Assembly (NCBI GenBank): GCA_947184155.2
Contig: CAMXCT020001088.1
Location: 1 to 64,000, forward strand
Length of the DNA: 64,000 nt
Direction: 5' to 3'
Source: Cladocopium goreaui
Lineage: Eukaryota; Sar; Dinophyceae; Suessiales; Symbiodiniaceae
The notes under the pieces are model-generated. The model worked only from the letters and a program-made list of their open reading frames with translations. It was not told the DNA's origin and ran no database searches. Made by a program: the position numbers and the translations under genes. Positions 1-28,220 of this stretch are shown piece by piece (position 1 is the first letter of the stretch; every line of letters begins with the position of its first letter).

Positions 1-2740
1 TGCGTAACAAGTTACCGACTGTGTCAATGCCAAGCAGGGGAGTCCATGTTCGGAATATGCGTTGGACAACTGCTCCTTGCCTTGTCCCTACATCCGGGTA
101 CCCCGGTGAGAGACAGGCAGTAGAGCCATTCTGCCTAAGCCAATAACCCAAACACGCTGCAGTGAGTGTGACAGCTGGGTCTAATGCAGGAGCAATACCT
201 AACCATCGAAATATATGTGGGAGATACCGTGCAGCCAGCCATGGTCTGCCAAGGATGAGTTTAGCAGAGCGTTGTTGGTATAAATTGATGTCGTCCGGAG
301 TAAAGCCAAAGTATGTACTTTGGTAAATATTAAGGGACAGAATAAAACAGTTATTGGCAAGGCATCTTTGCACTACAGAGTGGGCAGGTGTGGCGAAAAG
401 GGCAAGTCGTTGGTTGGCTTTGGTCATGGCTTTGGGGTTAATGGCTTGTGTGCCTGTAAGTTCCTCTACTGGGGTCCACCCTTGATTACTACGGGTATAT
501 TTACCATATAGGATCAGACCCAGCGCAGTGGTTTTTCCCTCGATGAGGTGGGCTCCCCAGTCGGAGCGTTCTAGCGCATTTAGAGTACTATGGGAGGCAG
601 GGTGATTAACCAGGACACTGCACTTGTTGGAGCAGCTACACTGTACTAGGAGGAGTGGGTCAATTTTGGCAAGATGTTCTCCAGCTAGTATTAAATCCAC
701 CTCTGCTGGGGTGAGGCACACAAACAAATTTGATCGGCACACAATGGTGGTGGTGCTATAACCGGTTCTGTGAACCAAAGCTTGTCGCAATGTAGCATGT
801 CCTACTAACCTTTGTGCCCAGTGCAATGATGGGTATTGGTCAATCTGACCTGAGCAAGCTGCATGCATATTGATCCCGCTGGTTCGCCAGCAGTGGTGTT
901 CATCAATTTGAATGCCAGCGGATTTCAAACGGATGCAAGCTTGCCAGGCATCCGAGAGCCATTGCATGCCAGCTGTGGTGTCCCCCACCATCGTGGTGTC
1001 ATCAACATATCCTTGAACTGTTAGCATTCCGGGGATTCGGTTGAGGTAGGTTAAAACTGGATCCATGGCAACGCAGAAAAGCAGGACTGAGAAAGACCGA
1101 CCCATGTCAACGCCCGTGACAATCATTTTTGAGGGCAGCAGCTTACCTTGGACCTTGTGCCTGCATCTTCGGAAGAGCAGGATGTGCCGGGTATACATGA
1201 TGATCCACCAGGGGGCTTTGCACGCTGATAAAATTTGCAAGATCCAGTGGGGGTTAATCCTCTCGAATGCTTTGGACAGGTCTAAGGACAGGCATGCGCA
1301 GGGTGCATCTTGATCTAAAACCGCTTGGACGGATTGGACAGCACTTTGCGGTTCGCGGAAGACATTTAACACCGTTTGAGAGGGGTGGAGTAGCGGAGCA
1401 ATGGCTTTAGTCATAACTGTTGCGATGCTTCCATCTATGACTCTCTCAAATGTCGATGGCATACCTAGTGGGCGGAAATTATCAGCAGTGGGGCCCATTT
1501 TGGCTTTCGGAATCCATGCTTGGACTGAACAAGGAGGTGGGACTGCAGACCTACAAATGTCATTGAGATGCGTAATCATCGCCTTCGAAGACACTCCAGG
1601 GTGGAGTCGCCATGCTGCATAGGGTATTCCGTCGGGTCCTGGGGAGGAATCATTGGTGGCAAGGACAGTTCTGATTAGGTCTTCCGCACCAGGCGGGGGA
1701 ACATGTGGCCAGGGCTGGGTTTGCACTTTATATTGCTCCAGGTAGTCAGTCCACTCAGGATCATATTTGACAGGCGGTTGGAACCAGAACTTGCGGGTAG
1801 CGAGCATGGCTGCCGACAGGTCCAGATCAGTCCGGCACTGGTTGCCCGCACCGTCCAGAATCGGACCATTATAAAATACAGTTCGTGGGCAGCTAGCCCG
1901 CAATCTCTGCCATAGGGGGGCATTGGTACCAAGGCCACGACTTCGAGTAGTTTCATCTCGATTCCTGGTAATAAGATGCTGTTGTTGTAGCTGTAGATCA
2001 AGGAGCTCGAAACACTTCCAAAGGAAGGTACGAGGCACCGTAATTACCGTGGATGATTGGCAATATTCTTCTAGGGCAGGACGGAAACCTGGAAGGGCCA
2101 CCAGAAGCTCTCGTAGCAACCGTTTAGAAATATTGAGAAGTGGTCGATCAGATTGGAGGTGCTTCCTCAGAGTGTTGAAGTCCCGGGGCCGTTTAGGGAG
2201 TGACATCCACCATTGCCATAATAATGTCTGGAGGGATTCAAAGGTGGGTTGGGAGACTAAGCAAAACCGGCGAACCAGCGATTGGAGTGACGGCCACACT
2301 TGCCGGGTGTCATGTCGGTCCTTACCCGGTTGGAAAACACTCGCCGGTATGGTCATATGCAGAGGTAGGTCTGGGCTACTGGAAACTGGTGGCCTGTGGC
2401 GCAATTGGATGGAGATACATGCATGTCCAGCAAGTTCAAAAAGCCGATCATAGAATACCTGATGTTGGAATAGTCCTCGATTCATGTATTCGGTCGGAAG
2501 AATGACCTTGTCGATTGCTGACGAGCCATTTGGGCCCCAGAAGGTCGGTTCATCTTTAACGATGTCGTCGCCTTGAGCAGTACTTAATATGCGGTGCCAA
2601 GCGTCAGGGGAGAGGTGATGCCCATGATTAAAGTCGCCGACTATGAAGAAAGGGTCAGGATGGTCCTGATGGTCAGATAACCATCTGGCAAGCGTTTCAC
2701 AATCTTCTTTAGCGCTACTGGGATGACAATAGGCCGAAAA
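1..2740 (-). CDS. LINE reverse transcriptase block (end of endonuclease domain plus RT), open to the window edge
   Basis: I translated this minus-strand frame codon by codon from base 2740 to base 2 and met no stop, so the gene simply runs off the window. It begins inside the endonuclease domain: IVGDFNHG at about 2627-2650 is the GDFN motif of the exonuclease-endonuclease-phosphatase fold. RT motifs follow: SSPGPDGIPYAAW near 1610-1660, RPLGMPSTFERVIDG near 1440-1480, LSLDLSKAFERI near 1265-1300 (motif A aspartate), and the catalytic YVDD at 998-1009. This enzyme copies the element RNA at the nick made by the endonuclease. The frame is separated from the upstream endonuclease half by a one-base shift at about 2741. 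Confidence 0.88.
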
Positions 2741-3434
2741 TCACCCAAAAGCAATCGGTTCTGGTCTGGACCTGCGCAGCAAGTAGTTTTCCAGGCGCGA
2801 TAACAATTTCCTGCAGGAGTCTAAAGGAGCATGGAATCAATATGGCTACCCCTCCCGATAAGCTTCCATTTTCTGTGACGATTGATGGGGAGTGCGCAAG
2901 ATTGAAGCCTGGATATGTTTGGAGAAAATTGGTAGCAGTGCTCGCCGTCCATCTAGTTTCTTGTAGGCAGACAATTCCCTGCCTAGCGCGGCGGAGGATG
3001 GCTTGTGTCTTTGGATTAGTCCATTGCAACGTTCTCCACCCTGATACATTCCATGTCGTTAAATGTCCAAGGGCAGTACAGCAATCTTGTTTCTTTTCTG
3101 GACGATATTTAAGGACTTCAGCACAGAGGAAGCTAAACTCAGAAGAGTTGGTCAACGCTTGCGCAAGGAGTTGCCTAGAGTGGGAAAAACATTCACTGTG
3201 GATGCCACACTTGTTAGCCACTGTCTGAATGTCTAATATTGGCCACGGAGCAGGTATCTGGAGCACATGCGGTAGAAAAGAGACTGACTGCAAGCAGTAC
3301 AGGCTTTTTGGACATTTGGTCATAAATTGGAGTGAGACAGTGCTCGGATTTGCCGGGACCACGCGTTGCGAAATTCGAGCAGCAGAGGCTTCGCAACTGT
3401 CTCGAGGCGCGGCATGGTCACTGGTTACACTTAA
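2715..3434 (-). CDS. N-terminal half of LINE APE-type endonuclease
   Basis: The minus frame is open from 3434, just after a stop at 3435-3437, down to 2715. It carries TTWNVSGWRT, IVCLQETRW and GGVAILIP, the first three signatures of the APE-like EEP endonuclease of LINEs; the ETRW glutamate is the usual metal ligand. No convincing ATG was found; a GTG at 3362 is the first alternative start, so the protein may be made by translation from upstream. The frame leaves the domain after CFWVIF at about 2741, where the continuation SAYCHPSS lies in the frame of the RT block. A lost base in a T run would explain the break. Role: first-strand nicking of target DNA for target-primed reverse transcription. 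Confidence 0.8.
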   Translation of the reverse strand, partial: LSVTSDHAAPRDSCEASAARISQRVVPANPSTVSLQFMTKCPKSLYCLQSVSFLPHVLQIPAPWPILDIQTVANKCGIHSECFSHSRQLLAQALTNSSEFSFLCAEVLKYRPEKKQDCCTALGHLTTWNVSGWRTLQWTNPKTQAILRRARQGIVCLQETRWTASTATNFLQTYPGFNLAHSPSIVTENGSLSGGVAILIPCSFRLLQEIVIAPGKLLAAQVQTRTDCFWVIFGLLSSQ

Positions 3435-3586
3435 TTAGAGAGCACACAAAAAAGGCAAAATCAGGGGAGGCATCATCTGTATTCCAGCTACATGCGAGTT
3501 CCTGACTAACTTTCCCAATGGGATTAATGTGTGGAAGAGTGTCACTATGATCTGGGTACTTGAAAACACGGCTGTCAATAGATGCT

Positions 3587-4489
3587 TTAATCGGCATGTT
3601 TGAAATCCTCGGTGTCATCGAGCTTCCAGTCGTGCGCAGCAGCAACAGCGACATCACCTTTGTTGTCAATAAACATGCAACCATGGAAATCAGGACAAGA
3701 ACTGGCTGCCGTGTGTATATTGCAAGAGGATTGTTCGACAAACCGAGACAGAAAGCAAACAATGCACTGGTCACATAGGAATGCACCGATAAAACGATGG
3801 CAAAGTGGATATTGTCCTTTAGGTCCATACGGAACAGCAAACCAGATGCAGTTGGGGTTGGTGCAGTTGAAAGGGATAGGTACAGCCGTAAACACAACAG
3901 GACGAGGCAGTTGCTGCCATGGGATGTCAACCCGGGTATGACAATTCCACGCGGCAGTGTCAAGGTGAAAAGCGTTCGAGCGTGGAAATTGAACACAATA
4001 GACAGTCCATTTGGCAGGGACGTCCCCAAAAGTGGTAATATGTGCTTGATCCTCCCAATCAGCAATATGAACAAAATGGACAGAAACTTGCTCACGATGT
4101 AATATGGAGTGCAGCCAGAGCAAAATTTGCGTCATGGTGGCGGCGCACTGTCCAACAGATTTAAGCATGTGGGAGATCCATTCCTTGGCCTGAGGACAAT
4201 GGCGCTCGATGGTAGCATCATAATTGTGCCCAAGGAAGAATTGAAGTAAATCTTCCGCTCTGCCAATTCCTGCTCCGAAAAACTTCATTCCTATAAGGAT
4301 GCTTTGCATGTGTTTTTCCTGAAGGAGTTGAACTGCAGTTGGTGATAACTGCGATGGCGGTCTGTCGTCCATAACACCTAGGTCGGCGGGGTGAATCTCA
4401 CGGGCAGTAGGCAGCAGTTGCTTAGGAAGTACATTTGGCATGATTGGGGTTAAGGGTCCTTCGATTGCATGAATTGGGAATTCTGGCAT
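3587..4489 (-). CDS. LINE ORF3, Cys/His-rich protein of unknown function
   Basis: 300 residues from the ATG at 4489. The frame is open further upstream to 4630, so it overlaps the last codons of ORF2 (stop 4612-4614) and adds a Gln/Arg/Glu-rich, coiled-coil-like stretch (QYQALREQVQTLAREQRIRD). That overlap fits reinitiation or a ribosomal frameshift joining it to ORF2. The C-terminal third has several Cys and His residues (CTNPNC, CHRF, CDQCIVC) that could bind zinc, a common trait of LINE nucleic-acid chaperone regions. I do not recognise a named domain. It sits directly before the endonuclease block, so a role in binding element RNA is an inference from position only. Confidence 0.6.
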   Translation of the reverse strand: MPEFPIHAIEGPLTPIMPNVLPKQLLPTAREIHPADLGVMDDRPPSQLSPTAVQLLQEKHMQSILIGMKFFGAGIGRAEDLLQFFLGHNYDATIERHCPQAKEWISHMLKSVGQCAATMTQILLWLHSILHREQVSVHFVHIADWEDQAHITTFGDVPAKWTVYCVQFPRSNAFHLDTAAWNCHTRVDIPWQQLPRPVVFTAVPIPFNCTNPNCIWFAVPYGPKGQYPLCHRFIGAFLCDQCIVCFLSRFVEQSSCNIHTAASSCPDFHGCMFIDNKGDVAVAAAHDWKLDDTEDFKHAD

Positions 4490-4611
4490 TGGGTCAAGAC
4501 CAATTTGCTTGGAAGAGAAATCACGAATACGTTGTTCTCGTGCCAGGGTTTGTACTTGTTCGCGCAGGGCTTGATATTGAGCTCGAGCCTGTTTTGGTGA
4601 GCGACTCCGGA

Positions 4612-7600
4612 CTATGCATGTTTGGTTGCTGTGTCAGCAGGTTCGGTCAGCCAGTCGCGTAGCCGCTCAGGGTGTCCTACGGCTGCCTGAATATATTCAG
4701 GATGGATGCTATTACCACAATAGTTTCTAATTGTAAATTCAGTGAGCAGCGAACGATGTGCCTGTACTCTGTCAAAATGGTTGTGTAATCCAGCTAGTTT
4801 TTCGACCTCCTCACAGAGCAAGATTCTCATGGGTGCTTTGATGTGGGGATGATGGAATATTGGCAGGATAGCACGGACAAGCCGGTCTCTATCAATGGTG
4901 TTCACATTTTTTGGTCGGAGAGACTGCAGGAAACGATTCCATGCGCGCAGATAGTGTGGCGGTAGGGATTTCTCGAAGTCAAGGGCAGGGATTATATCAC
5001 TGGAATGCATTTTGGCTTGGAGTTGAAATTGAGCTTTATCTCCCCAGAAGAGGTAGTCCCATATAAGAGAAATTGGCTGGTATGCCGTCCAAGATAGCTG
5101 ATACACATTGTGTCCTAGGACAGATCTGACTCGTAGGAGTGGTCCAAAAGGAATCGGATGACCATCAAAGTCTAATAAGGGCCCTTCTATGTCACTTGGT
5201 TCAAGGACGACCGCCTTAGAGACTTTGACACAGTCTTGGTAGTTGCGAAAGTAAAATCTGTTACGTCGTATGCCATGTGTATTCTTGGGGTCAACTCGGA
5301 AGCTGTCAGGAGTGGAATCAGGGTTAAGCCCAAGGGCACGAAGCATTGCTTTGCGATGAATGTCAAGCATGGCACCTGCATTTTCAAGCAGAAAACGGAT
5401 GTATTCAAGAAGATAGTTCATTTGCACAAGCCACAGGATTACGTGGACATAGTAAAAAAGGGAGCTACAGTGGCCAGTGAGTCCCAGGAGTCCCTTAAGA
5501 GGACCGGCTGGGGTGAGGTCCTGACAGGGTGAACCCGCAATTACAAACCAGCGGCACTGTGGTCCAGCTAATGCAAATGCTTCCTTAAGTATTTGGCATT
5601 GATTGCGAATAAGCTGCCGTACATCGTTTGCATAGAGCGTGTAAGTGTCTTTGCTGGCTTGGGTCCATTCACCATCCGTGCGAAGACGAAATTGTTCTCC
5701 AACGAGTTGTCTAAGGATTGGATCACATTCTGCAACAATGATGATACGCGGGGCACATCCTATAGCTTTAGTGATGGCCGGAATAGCTGAGCCTACACCA
5801 TCAAAAAGGCTAATGATGGCATATGGGTGAACTTTGGAATGCTTAGCCCTTTTGGGAGGGGATGCATCTTTCTCCTTCACGAAGGAACTATGGGAAGCAC
5901 CATTCTCACCACTGACTGGAGGGCGAAGGCTATCAGCATGTCCACAGGATGGACTGACTTTGTTGCAGCTATCATCAGGGCGTGACCGGACAGCCTCTGC
6001 TGGTGGATGCTCATGCGTTGAACACTGGGCACCCGCATTGACACTGACTGGTGTCAAAGCCTCAGTTTCACGAGGGTCAGGGGCAGCAACCAGCTCTTTA
6101 CTACTAAGGTCTGCATGGGGTAGTGTGACATTATCGTTTGGAGGAATGTCTGTGCGGCCAACTGTGAGTGCCCCACAGTGGCTTTCAGACGTATCACGCG
6201 TTATGTCATCGTTGTGGCCAGCATGTGGAATGGGTGTACTACCATGAGGAAACGGCGGACCAAGGCCAACCATGTGTACCCCATGGTGGCAGCTATGATC
6301 ATTGCCGGCCGGCTCATTTGGCAGGGGGAGAGACGTGTGTTCAGTTGGGGGTGGGTAACCAACCACGGGTACCCCGTGTTGATCACCCGCCCCACTGTGT
6401 TCAGGGTGAGTGTGTTTCGGGGTATTGGCAGGAGGGAGGTTCTCACTTGGTGGTGAGGGGTCGATTGTCTTGTCATCCGATGCTTCAGTTAACTTATCTG
6501 AAGTACTGTTATTTCCCAACTTCTTTCTTGAAAGGCTGGGGGCCTGATATCGTTTGGCACTGATGCCAAGAGTATTTTTGGGTTTTAACTTTGTTTTTTT
6601 GGGACGATGAGACTGCTTGGCACTCTGAAGTGTGGCAGGTGCAATGGCTTTGTACTGTGGAGGTTGGAAGGAGTAAGGCTGATGTTCATGCCGACGGAAA
6701 ACAAAACCCCATACAGCGGAGGTTGCTTTCAGTTGTTCGACCGGGATCCAAGCATGGCCTCGTAGGTTATCATAAACGAGAACCTGTCCTTCATTGCACC
6801 GTTCAATGATGAGAAAATGGTGTGACGACTTTCCTTGAACAATGATAATACCAGTGATAATGAAAGATTGAGAAATGGGATTGACACTCAGGGTGGGAAC
6901 ATCGAAGAGCTGTCCAAGGAGGTTTAATGCCTTGGTGGCAATTGGCAGTTGCTCAATGGGGCTTGTAATCTTCAGGGTGAAAGTCAAACAACCTTCAATT
7001 TCTTCGTTGCTTTGTTGGTCCTGATTGTAACAGTCACTGGCATGCGAAAAACCAACATCCTCCCTGTCAAGCGCGAGGCGCGGAGCCCGATCTGCAATCA
7101 TTTGTGGAAGATCAATGGTATCATTCTCAAGGTTAATACTCAACATTGTATCAAACAGAGCAGCAGAAACTTTGCCTGATGCATTACATGAAAGGCAGTT
7201 CACCTGAAAATGCGCAAAGAAGAATTCGCTATGGTCTGGAAATAAGTCATCACAGGCTGCAATAATCGCGGTGTCAAGGTCAGAGACTTGCCCGGGCGGA
7301 AAGGCATTCACGTTCAGGTAGCTGGCGAAAGCAGCACAGACCTCTCCAACGCTCACTCGTCTTCCTTGCACAGTAGCGGTCTGGTCAGCCCATGTCCATC
7401 CATTGCCAATAGCACATAGGACTAATTCTCTAATGTGGCCATGAAACATGTTATCATTCCAAGGTGCATGGGTGAGGACTCGAAGTGCAGTAACCGCATA
7501 ACACATGTAGCTTGGGAAATTAATAAGATAACACGTTGCAAGCTTGGCAAAGTAATCACAGTCAGCATGGGAAAATGAGCTGGGCCATCCAGTGATGATT

Positions 7601-9357
7601 TCTCTATTGGAAATAAGGAGATTGCTGCTTTGTTCGCTGCCACAGAGAATATTGTCAATAGGGCTATGTGAGGCTTTGACAAAGATTACATCATCGCTAG
7701 GAGCATGCGTTTTCGCATTATCATCCAGTGGTTGATAGGCGGCATTTTGTGCTAAGAAGTCAAGGATAGTTTCGGGTGGTTGATTAGGTATACCCCTGTG
7801 TTCATCTTTGCTGCGGCTCGTCTGTTTGCTGAACTGCTGGCTCTTGTGTGCTGGTAAACCAACTTGTAAGGTAAGATGATCAGAATGATCTTGCTGTTTC
7901 AGCGTTGGGTCATTGGCAATATACGCTGGAGGTTTAAGTGATTTTGCGGCCTGAGGCATAGAGTGGGTATGAGTGGGTTTGTGGGTAGCATCCTTTCCCT
8001 GAGTGGGGCAGTCCAATAGCGAGGGTTGAACAGTGGCGTTGGGGACAAAGTGGGCCTGGGCAGTAGGTTGGGCAGTGTCACACAACCGTGAGTACCCCAC
8101 GTTGGCGACATCTTTGTGATCAGTGGGCATACCTGCGTTCTGGTGCAAGTGTTTCATTTTGGGGGAAGTGGGGCTGCTCGTAATGCCATCTTGGGTATTT
8201 TGTCCTGGTTCGCGATGGTGATTCTGATCGAGGTTGGCCTTGGCAGGGTTGCTGTTAGAGGCGACAGGGGAATGACCATGGAGAGTATTTACAAGTTGGC
8301 GCGATTCTTTATCAGAACTATGAGCGTCGTCGTCAACCGGATCAAGCGCTGTTGCAATACATTCCATGGGCACATCATCACAGTGTTCGCCGGCAGATGC
8401 CTGATGGTGCGTTTCCGGGGGTTCTGGGAGTTTGTTGCTATTGGTTGGGGCAGGCTGCATCTCAATATCGCCCTCAGGGGGTATGTTGGGAGATCCTCTG
8501 CACTGCCTGGGTTTGTAAGGTGGACGGTACGCCGGTCTATTCCCTGTTGGTGTTGGACTCGACTGTCCATGAGAAGGCACACTCTTAGTGCTTTTCATTC
8601 CATGGCCGTTTGGAAAATGAGCAGTCGGCGTGGCATTAGTGTACTGCTCTTTCAATCCAGCATGGGTAGTGCCAGCATCAGGGGTTCTTTGTGATGATAC
8701 GATACAAGCATATGCTTCTCGGAGGTAACAACACTGCGTTTTATCGACGACCTGCGATATTGAAATTCCAGGTGGGAGTGTGACAAAAATTGAGGATGGT
8801 TCAAAAGTACGTATGATTAATTCATCATAATATCGTACCTTCCATTCATCACGCTCGAAGTGGATGGATTTCAAATGAAAACACTGCTCGGGACCAAGGA
8901 CGATATGATAAAAAAGCCATTTCAAATGGTCCCTATGCTTGATAAATTCATGATGAAGTAAATCAAGCTTGACAGTGTCAGGATTCACCACAAAGGATTC
9001 CTGGATGAAAGAGTTGTCACAGAAATTAACTTTTTGTAAGCATTCCATCAAGGGCATATGCAACTCTTTAGGCGAGAAAAACCAGGCCGGCGGTTGAGAC
9101 GCAATGGCAATGATATTGGTGAAGTCCTGCATAGAGTCAATGACAGTGGTGCGCAAATCATAATATCTTTTGGCTGACTGTTTCTTATTTGGTTCGAAAG
9201 AAAGATGACTGATTCTACCTTCTTTAGGGATCATTTGTTGAGCAATGACTTTATTCCAGTGATCCCGCCTGGTTTCGACTTCAGTAAGGGGAGACATCAG
9301 CACGAAAGTCTTCTGCAGAGGGGCACTGGTGTTGAATAACCACTTGGCCAGGGTCAC
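4612..9357 (-). CDS. LINE ORF2: USP-like cysteine peptidase fused to DNMT3-like cytosine-5 DNA methyltransferase
   Basis: 1581 codons, opening just after a stop at 9361-9363; the first codon is GTG at 9357 and the first ATG is at 9297. Order: an N-terminal part of unknown fold (to about residue 230), a Pro/His/Thr-rich linker, a USP-like peptidase region (about 600-890), a second low-complexity linker, and a methyltransferase (about 1175-1380) with a C-terminal extension. Peptidase evidence: Cys619 in SYMCYAVTALRVL, a CLSCNASG zinc-ribbon-like pair, His846/847 in SSHHFLIIE and Asp863 in VYDNLRG, 17 residues after His, as in C19 ubiquitin proteases. Methyltransferase evidence: SLFDGVGSA (1184-), AGSPCQDL with catalytic Cys1278, LLENAGAM with Glu1325, and RRNRFYF (1364-). 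GSPCxDL followed by KGLLGLTG resembles DNMT3. It should methylate cytosine in DNA; the peptidase may remove ubiquitin or process the polyprotein. Confidence 0.88.
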   Translation of the reverse strand: MTLAKWLFNTSAPLQKTFVLMSPLTEVETRRDHWNKVIAQQMIPKEGRISHLSFEPNKKQSAKRYYDLRTTVIDSMQDFTNIIAIASQPPAWFFSPKELHMPLMECLQKVNFCDNSFIQESFVVNPDTVKLDLLHHEFIKHRDHLKWLFYHIVLGPEQCFHLKSIHFERDEWKVRYYDELIIRTFEPSSIFVTLPPGISISQVVDKTQCCYLREAYACIVSSQRTPDAGTTHAGLKEQYTNATPTAHFPNGHGMKSTKSVPSHGQSSPTPTGNRPAYRPPYKPRQCRGSPNIPPEGDIEMQPAPTNSNKLPEPPETHHQASAGEHCDDVPMECIATALDPVDDDAHSSDKESRQLVNTLHGHSPVASNSNPAKANLDQNHHREPGQNTQDGITSSPTSPKMKHLHQNAGMPTDHKDVANVGYSRLCDTAQPTAQAHFVPNATVQPSLLDCPTQGKDATHKPTHTHSMPQAAKSLKPPAYIANDPTLKQQDHSDHLTLQVGLPAHKSQQFSKQTSRSKDEHRGIPNQPPETILDFLAQNAAYQPLDDNAKTHAPSDDVIFVKASHSPIDNILCGSEQSSNLLISNREIITGWPSSFSHADCDYFAKLATCYLINFPSYMCYAVTALRVLTHAPWNDNMFHGHIRELVLCAIGNGWTWADQTATVQGRRVSVGEVCAAFASYLNVNAFPPGQVSDLDTAIIAACDDLFPDHSEFFFAHFQVNCLSCNASGKVSAALFDTMLSINLENDTIDLPQMIADRAPRLALDREDVGFSHASDCYNQDQQSNEEIEGCLTFTLKITSPIEQLPIATKALNLLGQLFDVPTLSVNPISQSFIITGIIIVQGKSSHHFLIIERCNEGQVLVYDNLRGHAWIPVEQLKATSAVWGFVFRRHEHQPYSFQPPQYKAIAPATLQSAKQSHRPKKTKLKPKNTLGISAKRYQAPSLSRKKLGNNSTSDKLTEASDDKTIDPSPPSENLPPANTPKHTHPEHSGAGDQHGVPVVGYPPPTEHTSLPLPNEPAGNDHSCHHGVHMVGLGPPFPHGSTPIPHAGHNDDITRDTSESHCGALTVGRTDIPPNDNVTLPHADLSSKELVAAPDPRETEALTPVSVNAGAQCSTHEHPPAEAVRSRPDDSCNKVSPSCGHADSLRPPVSGENGASHSSFVKEKDASPPKRAKHSKVHPYAIISLFDGVGSAIPAITKAIGCAPRIIIVAECDPILRQLVGEQFRLRTDGEWTQASKDTYTLYANDVRQLIRNQCQILKEAFALAGPQCRWFVIAGSPCQDLTPAGPLKGLLGLTGHCSSLFYYVHVILWLVQMNYLLEYIRFLLENAGAMLDIHRKAMLRALGLNPDSTPDSFRVDPKNTHGIRRNRFYFRNYQDCVKVSKAVVLEPSDIEGPLLDFDGHPIPFGPLLRVRSVLGHNVYQLSWTAYQPISLIWDYLFWGDKAQFQLQAKMHSSDIIPALDFEKSLPPHYLRAWNRFLQSLRPKNVNTIDRDRLVRAILPIFHHPHIKAPMRILLCEEVEKLAGLHNHFDRVQAHRSLLTEFTIRNYCGNSIHPEYIQAAVGHPERLRDWLTEPADTATKHA

Positions 9358-10657
9358 AATTCAGCGAAAGAGGAAGAGAGTCTTCATGTTTAATCTCGAT
9401 ATCAAAACAGAGACACTTTTGCTGTGACCTGTCGACCTGGCACCAGCGAATGGAGAAATTAACAGCCCCCACTTTTTGTTTGAGCAATCGCATTAAAGAT
9501 GATTGATTTGATTGATCAAGTTGATCCTCCTTACACAATGATGAGGGAATTTCAGCCCATAAAATCTGTGCAGGTGCGTACTGAAAGGAGCCAATCTTGC
9601 CAAATTTGACTTGGAAGTGATTAGAATCATGGGCAGTCTGTGTGCAATGTGGTTCTGATCGCAGCATGTGGACAGTGAAAGCACCCTGTTTAGGCCCAAT
9701 CGGCAGATGTACATCAAATGGAAGAAGAGCTAAGTGAAGGTTAATGACAAGTGACGGCGATCCAAAGATGGCAAGTCTTCTGTAATTCATGAAGTGGTAC
9801 CTCACTTTAAGGTTGGCTAGTTGGACAAGAATCTCATTAAGTACGGTGTTCGGAAAGGCCTTCAAATCCAATACTGACATAGTAATTCCATGTGGAAAAT
9901 GCTTTTGGAATTCTGAATCATCCCATGGAAAGAAATGCTTAACCTGACATTCTGCAAGTCCATGCAACCAAGCGGCATCAACAGTTGGCTGTAAGATCTT
10001 CTCTACAAGTTCGATGTCTGCCAAGCAATCATTGGCAATTTGGACAGTGAGTGAGGTAACATCGATCTTATCTGATATACGATGGCATCCATTGGGTCTT
10101 CTGGAATCAATATAGTTAACTACAGAAAGGCCCTGAAGTTCACTGATTGTCTGGTGTCGTTCAACAACAGTTCTGGGAAAGACATACTCCAGCGTTCTGC
10201 AGGGTCGAGGCCAAGAAACATGGCAGTGTTCGGCATACGGTTCAACCTGGCATGCAATGAGATATTTCTCTTGGTTATTTGCAGAGCAAAAGGTAACCCC
10301 AAGATTTTGCATGAATCCGACATGTTGAACTTTATCGTTGAGGAGATTGTATAGCCATGCAGAAGCTTCAAATTCACTGGTACTACTTGAACAAGTGAAG
10401 ACAAAATGAACAGAAATATCTTTGTTAAGGCATATGTCTATGAATTTCTGAAGGACATAAGCTTTGGAGAGCAATAAGCAGAGGCCTACTCCTGTATCAC
10501 TGTGATCAAAAGCTTCTTCATAAGTGATCACTGTACCTGAATATCTGTTCGAGTCAATATCACTTGGACAGTTCGCCACAAAAAGATGTTCTTTCCCAAG
10601 ACTGGACACCAACTCAATGGCATGTTGTTCAACAGTGTCATGAGGGTTGCAGTTCAT
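9281..10657 (-). CDS. LINE ORF1, 458-residue protein of unknown function
   Basis: Starts at an ATG at 10657 and ends at 9281, overlapping the open frame of ORF2 (17 bases past ORF2's first ATG). No CCHC knuckle, RRM signature or signal peptide is visible. It is moderately acidic, has scattered Cys and His, and reads like a globular protein with alternating hydrophobic segments. In LINEs the first ORF normally encodes an RNA-binding chaperone, so that is the default guess from position; nothing in the sequence proves it. The overlap with ORF2 suggests translational coupling. Confidence 0.65.
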   Translation of the reverse strand: MNCNPHDTVEQHAIELVSSLGKEHLFVANCPSDIDSNRYSGTVITYEEAFDHSDTGVGLCLLLSKAYVLQKFIDICLNKDISVHFVFTCSSSTSEFEASAWLYNLLNDKVQHVGFMQNLGVTFCSANNQEKYLIACQVEPYAEHCHVSWPRPCRTLEYVFPRTVVERHQTISELQGLSVVNYIDSRRPNGCHRISDKIDVTSLTVQIANDCLADIELVEKILQPTVDAAWLHGLAECQVKHFFPWDDSEFQKHFPHGITMSVLDLKAFPNTVLNEILVQLANLKVRYHFMNYRRLAIFGSPSLVINLHLALLPFDVHLPIGPKQGAFTVHMLRSEPHCTQTAHDSNHFQVKFGKIGSFQYAPAQILWAEIPSSLCKEDQLDQSNQSSLMRLLKQKVGAVNFSIRWCQVDRSQQKCLCFDIEIKHEDSLPLSLNCDPGQVVIQHQCPSAEDFRADVSPY

Positions 10658-10659
10658 GT

Positions 10660-10840
10660 GGTCGACTATAACCCAGAGTACCCCTGGGTACAGTGACTAC
10701 ACAAAGGCAGGCAAGAGGGGCAACCTGGGCGGAAAAGACGATAACAAGAACAACAAAGACTACACTGAGTACCCCAGTGAGCCTTATGAATAAATCCAAC
10801 AAGATCACCAGTAAAAGAACTACACTGGGTACCCCAGGAG
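10660..10840 (-). promoter_or_regulatory. LINE leader with repeated TACACTGRGTACCCCAG motif
   Basis: Upstream of ORF1 the plus strand carries ACTACACTGAGTACCCCAG (near 10765) and ACTACACTGGGTACCCCAG (near 10817), nearly identical, and a looser copy GAGTACCCCTGGGTAC near 10674. Repeats in the 5' leader of a LINE often belong to its internal promoter. Function here is inferred only from position. Confidence 0.3.
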
Positions 10841-11020
10841 TCCTTAAACAAGTGGGGTTCAAAACAAGTGTGTTCAACGGTCACAATGCAAGTGGGCAAA
10901 ATAGAGAAGGTAGATCTTAAACAAACAAAACTAAGATAACCCCACCCTCCCAAATTATCCTCACAACAAAAACAGGTTGACGGGCACGTTTGTGCTCTTC
11001 CTACGGCAGTACTACCCTAG

Positions 11021-11257: not shown

Positions 11258-11616
11258 CCCTCAGTTTTTGCCGATCGACCCTCATTTCGTGCGAAAGGGT
11301 TGCTCCGGCACAAGTAAAATCGCAGTTTTACCTCAGTTTTTTCCGATCGACCCTCATTTCGTGCGAAAGGGTTGCTCCAGGACAAGTAAAATCGCACTTT
11401 TACCTCAGTTTTTGCCCATCGACCCTCATTTCGTGCGAAAGGGTTGCTCCAGGACAAGTCAAATCGCAGTTTTACCTCAGTTTTTGCCGATCGACCCACC
11501 ATTTCGTGCGAAAGGGTTGCTCCGGGACAAGTCAAATCGCAATTTTACCTCAATTTTTGCCGATCGACCTTCATTTCGTGCGAAAGGGTTGCTCCGGGGC
11601 AAGTCAAATCGCAATT
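11258..11616 (+). repeat. 72-bp tandem repeat, about five copies, running into an assembly gap
   Basis: The unit contains TCAGTTTTTGCCGATCGACC, CATTTCGTGCGAAAGGG and TTGCTCCGGGACAAGT. TCAGTTTTT starts at 11261, 11333, 11405 and 11477 (exactly 72 apart), then at 11550 after a one-base insertion. Copies differ at a few bases. Open frames across it merely echo the period. The array stops only because the sequence becomes N, so its true length is unknown. Confidence 0.9.
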
Positions 11617-14472: not shown

Positions 14473-15074
14473 CAAGGGAGGCCCCCACCGTGTCTCCAAA
14501 AAGTCTGCTGATTTCAGGTGCTAAAAACGAACCCTCTGGACATGGCGAGGGGCTGCTCCTAAAGTGACAGAAAGATCAGCAAATGTGGAAACACTTTCCC
14601 TGTACATTGCCAAATTTTGAAGGGTGCAAAGGTGCAACTTTTTCAGTGTAGGAAACAGAACCTGTATAGTTTCTCATTCACACTTCCGAAAGTTGCACCT
14701 TTGCACCCTTGTTTTTCTCTATCTATTTTTTAGACGCAAAATAACAGAAATTGACCGCGCTGTTATTCCATCCGAAGTGGTTAGACTGGAACCTTATCCG
14801 CCACAATTTCTCAAATTTGGGCACGTTCCCCCGCACCCCCTCCAAACAATGATTGAGAAAAATAAGATAATGATTCTTTGCAGCATCTGCACTTTGATCT
14901 TTGTTTCGGGGGGGAAGGGGGGATGCCGGGCCTGTCACATGCACTTGTGCCAGCTCAGGAGTCCAAGAGGTGGTCGTTTGGACGGCTTTTACTTCTGCCT
15001 GTCATTCAGAAGGGTCTATTTTTGGGCCCGAAAAAGTCAAGAAAAATTAGACACGCAAATACGGGCCTCCCCAG
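14473..15074 (+). mobile_element. Introner-like repeat, copy 2 (602 bp)
   Basis: Same orientation and ends as copy 1. The stem-loop recurs at 14621-14639 and 14691-14709. The open frame that runs through its second half into the helicase (from 14624) is fortuitous at its N-terminal end; family-like helicase sequence resumes only after the repeat. Confidence 0.75.
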
Positions 15075-17974
15075 TAGGTAGGTTAGTGGGAGACCAAGAA
15101 CGTAACAAAAGTAGTTACTCCCACACGAAATTCGACATACACCCGAGAGAAAGAAGGCAAATGCTGAATAAGTGTCAGTTAATTTTAGCCACCGGAGGGA
15201 CGGTAGCCCAGGATCTTACCATGCAATGGTCCACAATGGGTGGCTTTATGCAAGAGCTCTCCCTCCTGGTCATTGATGAAGGCCAGCAATATGGTACTGA
15301 CCGAGAAATTGCAGTCATCAGCCTGCTGCGACAGCAACCCCTGGTCTTGTGGACAGGAGACTCTGAGCAGACACCCGGCGGCATTGATCGTGCAGCCCGT
15401 AACGCGAAACGATCACGACAGCTCCTGTTGGCCAAGAAGCATGGGCTGCGAAGCGACCGCAATTATTATATGCCAGCTAACCTTGCAGATGCAATGATCC
15501 GACTGCTGGACGGTTCGGCCAATGAAGGTTTAGCGGCTCTTAGTCAAATCCTCAAACGAGGCCAGCCCACTTTAGGTCAGCTATGGACAAGCCATCTCTC
15601 GCCGCAAGATGCGGAAGACCTCAGGGCAGCCAGCACTGTTCTTCCAGGCCTGAGAGCCCAATTTGAAGCCGCCCAGCCGAATATGCAACGGCACTCCCGA
15701 TTTGTGGACGCAGAACTGCTGGCAGGTACAACTATTAACTTTCCACGGTCCCTTGTGCGCCTCGCCTGGATCCTGCAGCATGCCGCTACCCTCCTACCCA
15801 TGGCTGGAGACATACAAGCAGTTTTAAATTCCCAGACCGCCGGAGTTAGTGACATCCATGCTTGGGGGTTAATGCTTCCCTCCAGCTCTAGGGTTAGTCC
15901 TGTGACATACCATGCCGTGGTTGCAGTTAGATACCCTGATCTCTGCAGGCAGATCAATGGCCTATGGGAACTGGGAAGTTTTGCCTCGGGAGGACTCCCC
16001 GACAAGCCACCAGGGTTCCAATTAGTGCTCTGGGATACTAATGCTAGGATTAACGGGCTGGTAGCGACAGACCTGGAGACTCTTGTGTCAGAGGTACTCA
16101 CCCCTTTCCCCCACAATGCCGGGTTTGCCGATGGGCTTTTCGTAATGACCACTGCAACCGACCACAAGAACAATTTGAACCGTTCGGTGCTGAAGAAAGA
16201 TTACACCCGCACCCTACGCGTAGAAACAATAGCCAATTCGGCAGGAGGAACAGCACAGGTATCAATCGTAGCTCAGCCGAGTATTGGATTTTTAAACACC
16301 AAATACTACTCCAATGGCTCCCCTACCGAAGATACCGAAGACTGCCTTGGCAGAATCACTGTCGGACTCACCCGGTCCAAATCGTTAACGCTGCTTGTCT
16401 CCCCGCTAGACATGATGGGGCTCATGGGCATGGCGCAGGTGATTGCGACAATTGCATATGGCATCCGGGGCCTCCGGAGAGGAGAAACGACATGGGGGTG
16501 GCCTGACTTTGATCCTGACCCAGCTCAAGAGAATCTTGCACAGTTAAGCCGGTGGTCACTGAATTCAGCACCAACTTGGGAGTTCCCTCCCCTTGCAATC
16601 GCCAACCAATACCACGATCAGCAAGCCGACGAAGTGAAGCGGGCGAGATACCATCTAATATTGGTGCGCGGGTCAGACCTTCGCTGGCTAAACAGGGAGC
16701 GCCTCCAAGAAGTCAAAACAGGCTTAGCAACTCAACATAAGTGGCTCCCCGAGCAGACTCTCCCTTTCTCTGAAGTCGTCCTATATGCCTACGCGGCTGA
16801 TCGCACACCCTTTCCCACCTACGTGTGCCTGCTCTCAGGACTGTACAAAGCCCGCACCGGGCAAGTAGTAGCGCAGACTGGCCCAGAACAGGAGATCCTG
16901 TCCCTGCCTGGTATATACTTCTTTGATGGATGGCGATTACACCCTACGTTGCCGATCCCAGACCACTTGCCACGCGCGAAAGAGGCGCCAGTCCAAGGTA
17001 CCGCTCTAACTGCACCTGCACCTGGTACGGAACCGAAACGGTCGCCTGAAGAAGAAGCGAGAGACATCCTGGCAACAGCTGCCAAGAATCAGCCCGAAGA
17101 TGGGCCAAACACAAGAAGAGCAGCTGTCCGCGCATGCAAGTACTTAAGAGCTATGGTCAACCAATATGAGACCACCATCCAAGCCGTGCATATAGCCGCC
17201 CGCACCCATACGCAAAAAAGCAAGGGCACGGTAGGGCCAGCAGTTGACTATCGCTCGCAAGGAGAAGCCCTCCCAGTCATCTCCGCAGACCTGACCTCTG
17301 AATTACTGCATTGCTTGTCCACGCTCCCAGACCCATGGCCCCTGGCCAAGATCACCATAGACATGGAGAAGCCGAGCCAGTGGGTCTCAAAGTTGTGCAG
17401 ACTCTACTTCGCTGATGAGTATGCCAAGCGAACGGTTGGACTGCCCTCACGTAGGCATGTCCCGGACATTGCGGGTGCACTTCGAACAGTCCAGACCATC
17501 CTCCCCAAACTCGAAGTCAAAATGATTGAATTTTTAGCTGAATGGATGGTCACTCTTTTAATGCCAGCATCGCACGTATTGGAAGTGAGGGCACCTCACC
17601 TTTCCTTTATGATGCTCAAGGAATACTGGTTTAGAGAGCTGTACCTAGGCCTGAAAGTCACAGCATCCTTCGACCGCTCCGAATCATACACCAGAGTGAT
17701 CGATGGTCAGGTAAGATGCATCACGCCTGAAGTTAAGCCGCAGAATTTGCAGGTCATTTGGAATGTGCAGTTTATCACAGTTTTCGTGCCGGCATGGATG
17801 ATCCCACCCGTATACCATAGCCTGCGCAGAGAAAGCATCAAAACCGCCAGCTCTGCAAGTCCCATAGGTGTCCAGTCGGTCCGCCCCACTTGGTTTGAAG
17901 ACACAACACCCAAGGATAACGCATCTCTAATCAAGACCCTCAAAAAGAACAGCTCCAGCCACTACACGGGCTAA
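15075..17974 (+). pseudogene. SF1 (UPF1-like) helicase core, motifs II to VI
   Basis: Open to 17974. After GRLVGDQERNKSS come LILATGGTVAQDL, LLVIDEGQQYG (Walker B, DEGQ at 15275-15286), LVLWTGDSEQTPGG (motif III, 15341-15382) and GRITVGLTRSKSLTLLVS (motif VI arginine region, near 16349-16402). These belong to UPF1/SMUBP2-like superfamily 1B helicases, which unwind RNA or DNA 5' to 3' using ATP. The 600 residues that follow are not recognised. At about 17940 (AAAAA in CTCAAAAAGAAC) the frame shifts: stop at 17972 here, while QLQPLHGLKLVIKEEVLP continues in the next frame. With the introner-like block and two shifts, this copy is either a pseudogene or needs splicing and sequence correction. 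Confidence 0.75.
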
Positions 17975-18930
17975 AGTTAGTTATCAAAGAAGAGGTGCTG
18001 CCGACGAATGACCAACCAGAATTCCCATCGCTCGAACTGTTGGCTGCCAGAGGCCTTTTAGCACCTGACACGTGGAAGTGCAAACGTGCGCAAGTTAGCC
18101 TCAAAGCAACCATTGATGTCCCTATGTTGGGCACAATCATAGAGCAAAATGGTGATGGACTCCTGGAAGACTCCCACATGCCCGTGGGATGGCCACTCCA
18201 CATTGATGGTGCCGTCAGACAATGTTGTATTCACCGAGCTGCTAGCCTGCAAGAATTAGACGATATGCTCAAAGAATATGACATGAAAACGGATTCAGTT
18301 GAAATCAACCATGACGCGTCTCAATGGTCCCATCATGCAGTGTGGAACCGACGGTATATGGAACCGAAACCAGGATATACACTGGAACAGCTATGGGCTG
18401 ACTCCGAGCCTGCCATAAGCAAAAAAACGACCACGTCATATGAAGTCCAAATAAATGACGTCTTGCGTGCAGTAGCGACCATTCAGCATCTCTCATCCCC
18501 CATGCCACCCGATAGCCCCTTCCTAAGAGCGTCAGGGACAACAGCTGCTCTCAAAGCCCCACCACAAACTGACACCCCAGCGCAAAGAGCCCTGGAGGAA
18601 TGGGAACGCACTTTGCGTGAAAACAAGGCAGTGGCAATCCTCGCAGAGGTACAAGCCGGCCGACCAACTATAATCCACAAAGATGGTGGCGAAATGCTCA
18701 TTGCCATTGTCCTTGACAGGCCACTAGCGGAAGCGAAAGAACTAGTTGACGACCCTGCAGCATTCACTCGCGAAATGACGCGGATCCTGCGCGAAAAACA
18801 AACCCACCCACTCATCGCCCAAATGATGAAACCAGCGGAGAGCAGTGATCCACCCCCCGCCAATACCGCAGCCAGTAGCGCCAGTAGCAGTGGAGAACCT
18901 CGCACCACCTCACACGTGCAGTTCCAGTAA
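17941..18930 (+). pseudogene. C-terminal segment of the helicase-family gene
   Basis: Frame +1 relative to the core, open from before 17941 to a TAA at 18928-18930. No true start is needed: a GTG at 17995 is simply the first start-like codon, and coding sense (QKEQLQPLHGLKLVIKEEV) is continuous from upstream. It contains a mixed alpha-helical region and a Ser/Ala/Thr-rich tail. No known domain recognised. It is the natural C-terminus of the preceding helicase. Confidence 0.55.
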
Positions 18931-21978: not shown

Positions 21979-24900
21979 ATGGATTCAGGTAGTGTGAGCC
22001 AAGGTGTGCAAGGTTGTCCTAGTCCTGGTATGGCTGAAAGAGGTGAAGGAAGTGGTACCGGAAATGGTGGTTGTAGCCGTGGTGACGGATTGCCGCCAGT
22101 GCCAAGAACGCCTAGTCAGCAAGGTAGTGGATCTGGGATGGATGGACAAACACCTGAAGTAAGTAACATGCCCCAGCAGCAGCCACACAGCAACAACAAG
22201 CAAATGTGTCACAGAACGTACAGGGATTTGCGAGCACGACAAACCTGGATGCAGGTGGTCAGGTAGGTCCGGTGCAGGGATGTCAGCAAGGAAATGTCCC
22301 CGGAATGCAAGGACTGGGACCAGCATGGTTTGGTGCGCAATGGATTCCCCAACAACAAACGTTTATGCAACAGAATTCGCAAGCGCGTGTGCCAAGTTAT
22401 GGTTGTGCGAGTATGCCTGGTGGACCAAGGTCTGGAGATTTTCCAAACTTAGGAGTGAACCCAATGAGTTGCCAAGGAAACATGCCGAGTGGCCCGGTTG
22501 GAGCGAGCTTGGGAGGTTTGACGCCTCAGGCGGCGCAGATCCAAGAGGTCATGGCCATGTTAGGTAGCATGAGTGAGGGACAGCTACAGACAGTGCAGCA
22601 GCATATGCAAGATCGTTTTGTAACTATGCAACAGAGAAGAGGGGTTCCAGAAGTGTTTGGTGATGGTCTTGGTAGGGCAGCTGATTCGTCGTTTGTGACT
22701 CCGCAGCCATTTGATGTTTTGCCTGGTTTTGGTGTTCAACAATCAAATCATGGAAATTCACAGCAATTGGATGTCTTCGCCAAAAGCGAAAAATGGTTGA
22801 CACCGGCACCAACACCAGTAGGAACTTGGAAGACAAGAGAAGAAGAGGTGTTAGGTTGGGCTGGCTATTTGGATGAGTTGTCATCCTGGGCAGCTGGTGG
22901 AAGTTTAGAGTTTTCTGTAGAAATCCAGCATAGTAGCCGTTGGCCCGGTCCCATCAGATGGAGTGCTCTCAGTGGAGCACAACAGGCAAGGTCTCGAAGG
23001 CTTATGTCCATCTTAAAAGCTGCGTTTCACGACAACCCCAGGTGTGTGGCGTTGGTGAACGCCTTCAGTGAGGGTGTGGCATTACATGGAGTAGGATCTA
23101 GTGACAGAGTGGCAGTAGCAGTAAATCAACAAGCAAACGGGTTTGAACTGCTTAGGCAACTTACTCTTGAATTTTCTCTGAGGTCAAGATCCGAAGCGCT
23201 CTCACTAAGGACGCAGATTGCAGGGAAGTCCTTTGTCCTGGCGGCGACACAGACATCGCCGAGTTCCTTGGTTAGTGATACTATCAGAAGAATTGACTAT
23301 GAAGCTGCAAGGTTCTTAAGGTTGTTAGGAACTCTCCCTATGCAGGTGGACACCACAGGACTGAAGCTGGCAGATTCTGACATGCTAGTTGTTCTGTTGA
23401 AAAGCTTGCCTGAGACAGTGAAGAACTACGTTCTCCACCACAGCGGCGCAGACAATTACGAGTCCTACAGGAACGCTGCGATGCGGTGGGAAGAGCAACA
23501 GCGCCTGTTTAGCGATTTTGAGACAACAGGCCATAGCAAGAGATTGAGTTCCCTGGAGGGGAATGTAGAACATCATTCTCTTGATGCCAATCTTGTAGAT
23601 GTAGTGGAAGGCAGGTGCGGGAAGTGTGGCAGTCGGAAACACACTGCCCCAGGTTGTACCGCAGACATGAGCAAGATTCGGTGTTTTAGATGTGGTAAGA
23701 ATGGACACATCAGCTTCAACTGCCCTGAGAGCAGAGAAGGCAAGGGTAGTGTAAGGACTGACGCTTGGGACAAGAAAGGTTCCAAAGGAAAAGGCTCTAA
23801 AGGTAGCAAAGGAAAGGGAAAGAAAGGTAAGTTGAATGAAGTTTCAGAGGATTGGACCGACTGGACTGCAGAGAGTTGGGACGATGATGACTATTGGTGG
23901 CATGACCAATGGCCGGAGAGCTGTGATGGTCAATGGGGAGTTTCGCAGACATGGTGGGACGATGGTTCTGGATGGTATTGCGACGGGTATGGGTATACCT
24001 GGCAACAGGGACCAGTCCAAAGTGCGGAACCGAGTGCAAGTCACGACAATAGGTCTGATGTCCAAAAGACTGGCAGTGTCGGCAGCATGATCATAAATCC
24101 TTTGTTGTTTGACATGACATGTGAAACCACTGGAGGTCTTAGGTTTGTGCATGAGCATGAGGTTGCTGACATGGAAACCGAGAATAGGCTTGTGGTTGAT
24201 TGTAAAGACTTTGAAAGTGAGTTGGCTGACACGGGTTGTGTGCTGGCAGGGAGCTGCGACAGCTGTACTCGTGAGTCAAAAGAAGATGAACTGGCTGACA
24301 TGGGTTGTGTGCTGGCAGAGAGCTGCGACAGCTGTACTCATGAGTCAGAAGAGAAAGATGAGCTGACTGACATGGGTTGTGTTCTGGCAGAGAGCTGCGA
24401 CAGCTGTACTCATGAGTCAGAAGAGAAAAATGAGCTGACTGACACAGGTTGTGTGCTGGCAGAGAGCTGCGACAGCTGTACTTGTGAGTCAGAAGTAGTC
24501 AAAAGTGAACTGACTGACACAGGTTGTGTGCTGGCAAGAGGTTGCGACAGCTGTACTTGTGAGTCAGAAGTAGTGAGAAGTGAACTGGCTGACATGGGTT
24601 GTGTGCTGGCAAAAGGTTGCGACAGCTGTACTCATGAGTCAGAGGAAGTTGAAGCGGCTGACATGGGTTGTGTGCTGGCAAGAGGTTGCGACAGCTGTAC
24701 TCATGAGCCATGGTTTTGTGGTTTGAAGTGTGGAGATGAGGTTGGACTTGGTGACAGTTCCAACTTAGAAACATGTTTTGTTAATGACCCCAGCCGAGAC
24801 TTGTGTGCCACTGTACCGATGAAAGTCGTTTTGGTGCGTGCACATGATTGGTTTGACGACCACAGTGAGGTTTCGGTTGAACAGCAGATTGAACCTTATT

Positions 24901-27900: not shown

Positions 27901-28220
27901 AAGAAGCCGAGGAACATGTGGTTGCAACTTTGTCGTCTGTAGTGCCTGTGAAGACAACTGGAGAGATCGGAGAAGAGGGAGGATCCCTGACCTTTATTGG
28001 TCGTGTCATCAAAAGAGAAAGAGATTCCTCTGAGATCACTCTGGGTGTCGATCCACATTATCTTGACTCTACGTTTCTGGATTATGGTGTTACTCGTGGG
28101 TCTGAGAATGTTCCTGACATTTCGGGACATCTGGAGAAAACACTCACGGATAGGTCCCGACCTGAGACAGTGAATCTTTTGCAGAGTTTTACAACCGAAA
28201 GTTGGCAAGATACATTTTGA
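21979..28220 (+). CDS. Copia 1 gag-pol polyprotein (gag, CCHC, Cys-rich repeats, protease, integrase, RT)
   Basis: The ATG at 21979 fits gag start; a one-base shift near 22200 moves coding into the frame open from 22206 to 28220 (2004 codons). In order: Gln/Gly-rich gag; a Cys-His pair and CCHC knuckle CFRCGKNGHISFNC (23680-23722); a Lys/Gly/Ser-rich stretch; seven tandem units of about 23-26 residues containing GCVLAESCDSC (24210-24710); protease LLDSGAST (near 24960); integrase HRRQGH...CLEC finger (25440-25500), Asp in QADFAFL, Asp in VHTDSERA and Glu in KRAVRELKES; RT with RWVAAYK, ALDVSHAFMHSP, ALNGLRDA and YVDDILLL (27867-27890). It ends 340 bases after YVDD, before any RNase H motif. 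Confidence 0.92.

Follow-up and report, generated by a model that had tools for sequence, protein, structure and literature searches.

SymbioLINE-Dnmt, described by de Mendoza et al. (2018, PMC5890265), is a dinoflagellate LINE with a C5 DNA methyltransferase (DNMT) ORF upstream of the reverse transcriptase (RT) ORF. According to that description, the element is intronless and present in many copies. The preliminary description of the DNA studied here had cited LINE-borne DNMTs in Symbiodinium as already described, and this paper bears that out. Its abstract suggested that retrotransposon DNMTs methylate new copies. The SymbioLINE DNMT gave no methylation in yeast, a result that the authors called inconclusive (PMC5890265). 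In the published trees, the SymbioLINE DNMTs form an orphan lineage and are not Dnmt3 (PMC5890265, PMC12344493). Dinoflagellate LINEs are known mobile elements with a DNMT, and its benefit to the element is unexplained.

Dualen elements carry an OTU domain. An Ulp1-like protease is described in the NeSL/Utopia non-LTR retrotransposons (PMC4640811), and OTU and Ulp1 domains are described in Ginger1 DNA transposons (PMC2836005). A protist protein with a Peptidase C19 domain and a transposase_11 domain is also mentioned in the account of Ginger1 (PMC2836005).

The window analysed in this study is a stretch of 64,000 nucleotides from Cladocopium goreaui. A frame of 1581 codons had been reported at 4612-9357. 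The frame is real and lies on the minus strand, which had not been stated. It is the middle part of a larger LINE ORF1 that is interrupted in the window copy. ORF1 relatives of about 2400 aa (P0011, P0017, P0018, P0019) extend past the frame in both directions. The ORF at 9281-10657 (-) corresponds to their first ~450 residues, and 3587-4489 (-) to their C-terminal part. The last residues of ORF1 match 3418-3591 (-) in other relatives, such as P0003 and P0004. The interruption reflects either frame breaks or assembly errors resembling them. The features of the element are the following.

2..2485, minus strand: piece of ORF2 with reverse transcriptase (RVT_1, 3.4e-15), running off the contig start
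2715..3362, minus strand: piece of ORF2 with an AP-endonuclease match (Exo_endo_phos, 5.6e-4, below the curated cut-off)
3418..3591, minus strand: final portion of ORF1, again in a different frame, as residues 169-225 of the ORF at 3418-4095
3587..4489, minus strand: C-terminal part of ORF1, an ORF of 300 aa whose residues 1-297 match intact relatives
4612..9357, minus strand: middle part of ORF1 (P0001), 1581 codons, with relatives continuing on both sides
4648..5823, minus strand: predicted C5 cytosine DNA methyltransferase domain, residues 1179-1570, with the Cys1278 codon at 5524-5526
6673..7605, minus strand: probable USP-like cysteine peptidase domain, residues 585-895, assigned from conservation, spacing and dN/dS
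6769..6771, minus strand: Asp863, presumed catalytic (45/45 aligned residues, 48/48 own-genome copies)
6817..6819, minus strand: His847, presumed catalytic (45/45 aligned residues, 48/48 own-genome copies)
7030..7197, minus strand: zinc-finger-like stretch with putative ligands C721, C724, H772 and C776 (each 45/45), whose finger matches USP15 and USP2-type proteins
7501..7503, minus strand: Cys619, presumed nucleophile (44/44 aligned residues, 48/48 own-genome copies)
9281..10657, minus strand: N-terminal portion of ORF1, lying in a different frame (P0002, 458 aa), assigned by its match to relatives, with no Pfam match at E<=5
10658..11020, minus strand: 5' untranslated region, up to the end of the match to the C512 copy (alignment to C512)

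A conserved basic stretch of the SPPKR type is found at 5864-5905 (-), residues ~1152-1165, directly before the DNMT domain. Judged by eye in the alignment consensus, it looks like a nuclear localisation signal. The reading of the 1581-codon frame as a chance ORF was rejected on the basis of its homologues and of dN/dS.

The claim that the frame encodes a LINE protein was supported by a second copy, on contig C512 of the same genome, which pairs ORF1 with an endonuclease-RT ORF2. ORF1 of this copy is open over 2413 aa. ORF2 starts 2 bases past the ORF1 stop and measures 2061 aa by coordinates. It matched AP endonuclease (2.2e-10) and RT (9.9e-15) in Pfam, together with a weak RNase H-like match (RVT_3, 0.012) below its cut-off. 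Over 1412-11020 the window and C512 copies were 98.4% identical (9613 columns, 8 of them gap positions), and over 1-2412 they were 99.1% identical; the window copy is therefore young. The start of the contig at base 1 cuts off the 3' part of the window copy. The genome held 438 candidate copies. All 127 that were scored had >=92% identity in the peptidase, and 125 of the 127 had no stop. We interpret the window element as a disrupted copy, and a young one, of a dinoflagellate LINE that is abundant and has two ORFs.

One copy (L004, G000:C2086:102778-103710, plus strand) had 2 differences from the window copy in 3933 positions and shared its 1582-codon open stretch. It either arose very recently or represents one locus that was assembled two times. 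Just past the end of the C512 match at 11020, a tandem array occupies 11259-11613 (72-base unit, 4.9 copies, 93% matches). The observed/expected CpG ratio was 0.598 in the ORF1 region, 0.578 in a copia-type element of the window and 0.624 in the window from 12501 on. No sign of self-methylation was seen in the CpG content of the ORF1 region.

Other mobile elements were observed in the window. A 2004-aa open frame at 22206-28220 (+) matched RVT_2 (2.1e-18) and a zinc knuckle and belongs to a Ty1/copia-type element. Three consecutive ORFs at 40261-46702 (+) resemble, by eye, a second copia-type element. The first and third of them were scanned against Pfam; the first gave an aspartyl-protease match (0.0062) below cut-off and the third gave none. 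Two neighbouring long ORFs, at 14624-17974 (+) and 17995-18930 (+), had no Pfam match at E<=0.01, and the first appeared helicase-like by eye. In the 1.17-Gb assembly, the DVNP family, which we take as a dinoflagellate marker, gave 34 matches, with 0 in 14 control genomes, which identifies the host as a dinoflagellate. Eleven DVNP gene copies stand at steps of about 1 kb, with one wider gap, at G000:C1225:598030-617938.

A total of 61 homologues were collected, 51 in one search and 11 in another, with 1 overlapping. Both domains were present in 32 of the 61 (>200 bits each), and the peptidase always preceded the DNMT. Fourteen homologues had the DNMT alone; 12 of these are cut proteins, since they start <=361 residues before the DNMT. 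In P0052 and P0053, distant relatives of the DNMT, a peptidase would fit, but none was detected. Residues 669-702 and ~880-920 of P0052 looked, by eye, like a peptidase remnant without the catalytic Cys (profile score -0.3 bits). The peptidase alone was found in 15 homologues, all ending before a full DNMT. Trees of the two domains were compared for the 33 proteins with both, including P0001. They had 22 of 30 splits in common, and at most 3 splits were common in 500 label permutations. Splits supported at >=95 numbered 20 and 16 in the two domain trees, with 13 in common and 0 in conflict. This agreement indicated that the pairing is old and was inherited as a unit within the homologue set.

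The peptidase region was aligned for 45 sequences, including the window (residues 585-895, down to ~20% identity to the window). Cys619 was invariant in all 44 sequences with a residue there, and His847 and Asp863 were invariant in 45/45. The Cys-His-Asp set that had been proposed is thus present, with Cys619 and Asp863 correctly placed; the invariant His is residue 847, whereas position 846, named at first, is H in 30/45. Four putative zinc ligands, C721, C724, H772 and C776, were each conserved in 45/45; this site was missing from the preliminary description. The triad and the four ligands make up 7 of the 17 invariant columns among 311, the triad having been named beforehand with its His off by one and the ligands picked after conservation was seen. 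No homologue with an alignable peptidase region lacked the triad residues, and P0052 and P0053 had no detectable peptidase. In the own-genome copies (n=48), the triad was kept in 48/48 and C776 in 47/48. The youth of the copies as the sole explanation of residue conservation was rejected, as the residues are invariant down to ~20% identity.

Selection was estimated by the Nei-Gojobori method as the ratio of mean dN to mean dS. Copies not aligned across a region and pairs with dS <=0.02 were excluded, as were copies with a stop (2 in the first linker, 2 in the peptidase and 1 in the DNMT). The C512 copy is counted twice in the set (L005, L033). The dN/dS of the peptidase was 0.093 (47 copies, 1053 pairs), a value that can be lowered by the choice of copies by peptidase similarity. 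It was 0.055 for DNMT residues 1179-1395 (42 copies, 826 pairs) and 0.079 for N-terminal residues 13-239 (9 copies, 34 pairs). The two linkers had values of 0.410 (37 copies, 653 pairs) and 0.447 (46 copies, 993 pairs). Purifying selection acts on both the peptidase and the DNMT domains.

The positions given earlier for the DNMT motifs were right: FDG from F1185, GSPCQ with Cys1278, ENA at 1325-1327 and RRNR from 1364. The motifs SLFDG, GSPCQD, ENA, RxR and GN..xP were invariant among 8 diverse DNMT sequences; we take them to be the FDG, PC (with the catalytic Cys), ENx, RxR and GN motifs of DNMTs. Cys1278 was kept in 48/48 own-genome copies, in which the other DNMT motifs were nearly invariant. 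A profile of the DNMT region of the 8 diverse sequences (A5) gave 43 matches against PDB at E<=1, and 38 of these were C5 methyltransferases. The best were DRM2 (2.9e-7), then DNMT3A (1e-6; DNMT3A/DNMT3B group). Long unclipped alignment profiles against PDB gave DRM2 (A1 also DNMT3) and noise, a stricter rerun with A2 gave no PDB match at E<=0.001, and a phmmer search of PDB with the single 1581-aa sequence gave a low-complexity B-raf match alone. The DNA_methylase HMM (PF00145), proposed earlier as a check, did match the window domain at 15.9 bits (E 0.0092), but its cut-off is 22 bits. Scans of the 8 single DNMT sequences with PF00145 gave a match at E<=10 for 7/8, with a best value of 7.1e-5 and single sequences below the Pfam cut-off; full-length P0007, P0019, P0052 and C512 ORF1 were not matched at E<=1. 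Together, motifs and profile matches support the prediction that this ORF1 domain is a C5 cytosine DNA methyltransferase. The label "DNMT3-like" holds in that the nearest solved structures are DRM2 and DNMT3, but it is weakened as a phylogenetic placement, the SymbioLINE DNMTs being an orphan lineage in the trees cited above.

The identity of the peptidase was investigated by comparison with USPs (118 of 120 proteins fetched, nearly all USP2-type). The order of sites in the LINE domain (Cys, zinc pair, zinc pair, His, Asp) is the USP order. The gap between the zinc pairs is 48 residues, equal to the USP median of 48 (n=118; range 46-181), and the long gaps among USPs are probably mis-assigned pairs. 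The His-Asp distance is 16, compared with 15-17 in USPs, and the distance from the last zinc ligand to His is 71, compared with 76-82. The Cys-to-zinc distance is 102, compared with a USP median of 149. The second zinc pair is HxxxC instead of the USP CxxC. The GNTC[YF] box was not found in the peptidase alignment: the peptidase reads SYMCY and variants, and the next aromatic residue (Y/F) is shared in 44/44.

Profile searches bore on the same question. The peptidase-only profile A3 gave 6 PDB matches at E<=10. Five were USP15, the best at 0.031 and in the finger region. The more diverse peptidase-only profile A4 gave 0 PDB matches. The finger stretch aligned to USP2-type proteins (best E 0.0022, set of 120), and the second and third best matches were gapless. 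Twenty peptidase-only scans, which covered 14 distinct sequences, gave no UCH/UCH_1 match at E<=10. Comparison with a USP profile by hhalign gave a program probability of 1.5-2.2% and a score of 24.7-25.4, against 18.0 for the reversed control; 3 of 300 column shuffles reached a score of 24.66. In the low-threshold hhalign alignment, the peptidase Cys, His and Asp coincided with the catalytic residues of USPs. Two loci came from a scan for USPs of greater diversity, and a search for peptidase relatives in viral contigs gave 35 pattern matches, 0 of them confirmed. The earlier USP assignment stands on the order and the mostly USP-like spacing of the catalytic and zinc sites, and is weakened by the missing UCH match, the weak profile-profile score and the empty PDB search with A4. 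The conserved domain is very likely a cysteine peptidase and likely USP-like, and the evidence is suggestive of membership in the USP family (C19).

Alternatively, the domain could belong to a different family of papain-like cysteine peptidases, either C39-like or new, and contain a zinc insertion without any relation to ubiquitin. C39 was the Pfam peptidase family matched, in 5/10 members of A3 and 1/10 of A4 (best 0.0056, window domain), as well as in the full-length window frame (0.042), P0007, P0019 and C512 ORF1. A C39-type transporter peptidase was the sole NCBIfam match of the peptidase members (3/10), and UCH was unmatched. However, the C39 match spans 42 residues (253-294 of 311), the His-Asp segment alone, at 17 bits against a 22-bit cut-off, and the finger stretch matches USPs. 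To our knowledge, C39 peptidases lack a zinc finger in the stretch from Cys to His. We consider a family other than the USPs unlikely. That the region is a non-catalytic zinc-binding domain for RNA or protein binding would agree with its 4 invariant metal ligands. Against it, 3 more residues are invariant and follow the order seen in peptidases, their His and Asp as far apart as in USPs, and the low-threshold alignment sets this triad on USP catalytic residues; such a role is very improbable.

A further explanation accepts a peptidase and changes its target. As a maturation protease, the domain would cleave the ORF1 polyprotein (~2400 aa) within the linkers and free the DNMT and other parts, without ubiquitin. 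The very long multi-domain protein, in which fast linkers (dN/dS 0.41-0.45) surround conserved domains, is consistent with such processing, and a viral OTU-like domain is described as likely cutting a terminal protein off the viral polymerase (PMC12721341). No conserved cleavage-like motif was seen in the peptidase-DNMT linker, however; a GVxxVG-type motif was present in 6/9 proteins and absent from the 3 most distant. We regard self-processing as rather improbable.

The reading to which we lean, by a small measure, is a two-ORF LINE whose ~2400-aa ORF1 carries a USP-type peptidase and a DNMT, with deubiquitinating and DNA-marking roles as proposed here. The ORF1 protein would consist, in order, of an N-terminal region, a linker, a papain-like cysteine peptidase of the USP (deubiquitinase) type with its zinc finger, a second linker, the DNMT and a C-terminal region, and ORF2 would supply the endonuclease and reverse transcriptase. 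As in LINEs generally, the ORF1 protein may enter the nucleus with the element RNA and the ORF2 protein. The peptidase is presumed active. It might act on the element ribonucleoprotein, or on host proteins where insertion takes place, by taking off ubiquitin or some ubiquitin-like tag, which would stabilise the complex. The methyltransferase, for its part, would mark the new DNA copy. The preliminary description had likewise suggested that the element might edit ubiquitin on host factors and so serve self-regulation or evasion, which is a hypothesis.

A broader reading is plausible but held tentatively, with somewhat more doubt than belief. It describes a long-lived dinoflagellate LINE family with an active deubiquitinase and a DNMT in one ORF1 protein, which selection has kept together from a time earlier than the deepest splits seen among the two-domain proteins. 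The element would control the stability of its integration complex (or chromatin ubiquitination) and the methylation of new copies, and the deubiquitinase, marked by its HxxxC finger, would form a new subclass of USPs. If a conserved ubiquitin-type peptidase does share the protein, the LINE DNMT has so far been considered without its constant partner, both domains are predicted to act on the same complex, and a peptidase subclass missed by present family models would be added.

The preliminary description knew of no report of a peptidase in a LINE DNMT protein, and none was found in the literature searched, most subscription journals and all bioRxiv preprints lying outside it. The DNMT half is already published, and the conserved peptidase in the same protein is apparently undescribed in that literature. 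By its description, SymbioLINE-Dnmt shares with the window element a dinoflagellate host, many copies without introns and a DNMT in ORF1, upstream of an endonuclease-RT ORF2. The peptidase domain seen here is no part of that description: the words peptidase, protease and ubiquitin do not occur in its main text (PMC5890265). NeSL/Utopia and Ginger1 are, like the window element, mobile elements with ubiquitin/SUMO-type peptidases. They are other elements with other peptidase families (apart from the C19 mention), and no DNA methyltransferase is mentioned in the parts of those papers that describe the peptidases. With USPs (peptidase C19; USP15, USP2), the LINE peptidase has in common the site order, the zinc-pair gap, the His-Asp distance and the finger stretch. 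It differs from them in having no UCH match and no GNTC box, HxxxC for CxxC and a shorter Cys-to-zinc distance. DRM2, DNMT3A and DNMT3B are the best solved-structure matches of the LINE DNMT profile. The LINE DNMT has SPCQ, whereas DRM2 has SPCN, and DNMT3 enzymes likewise have SPCN in place of SPCQ.
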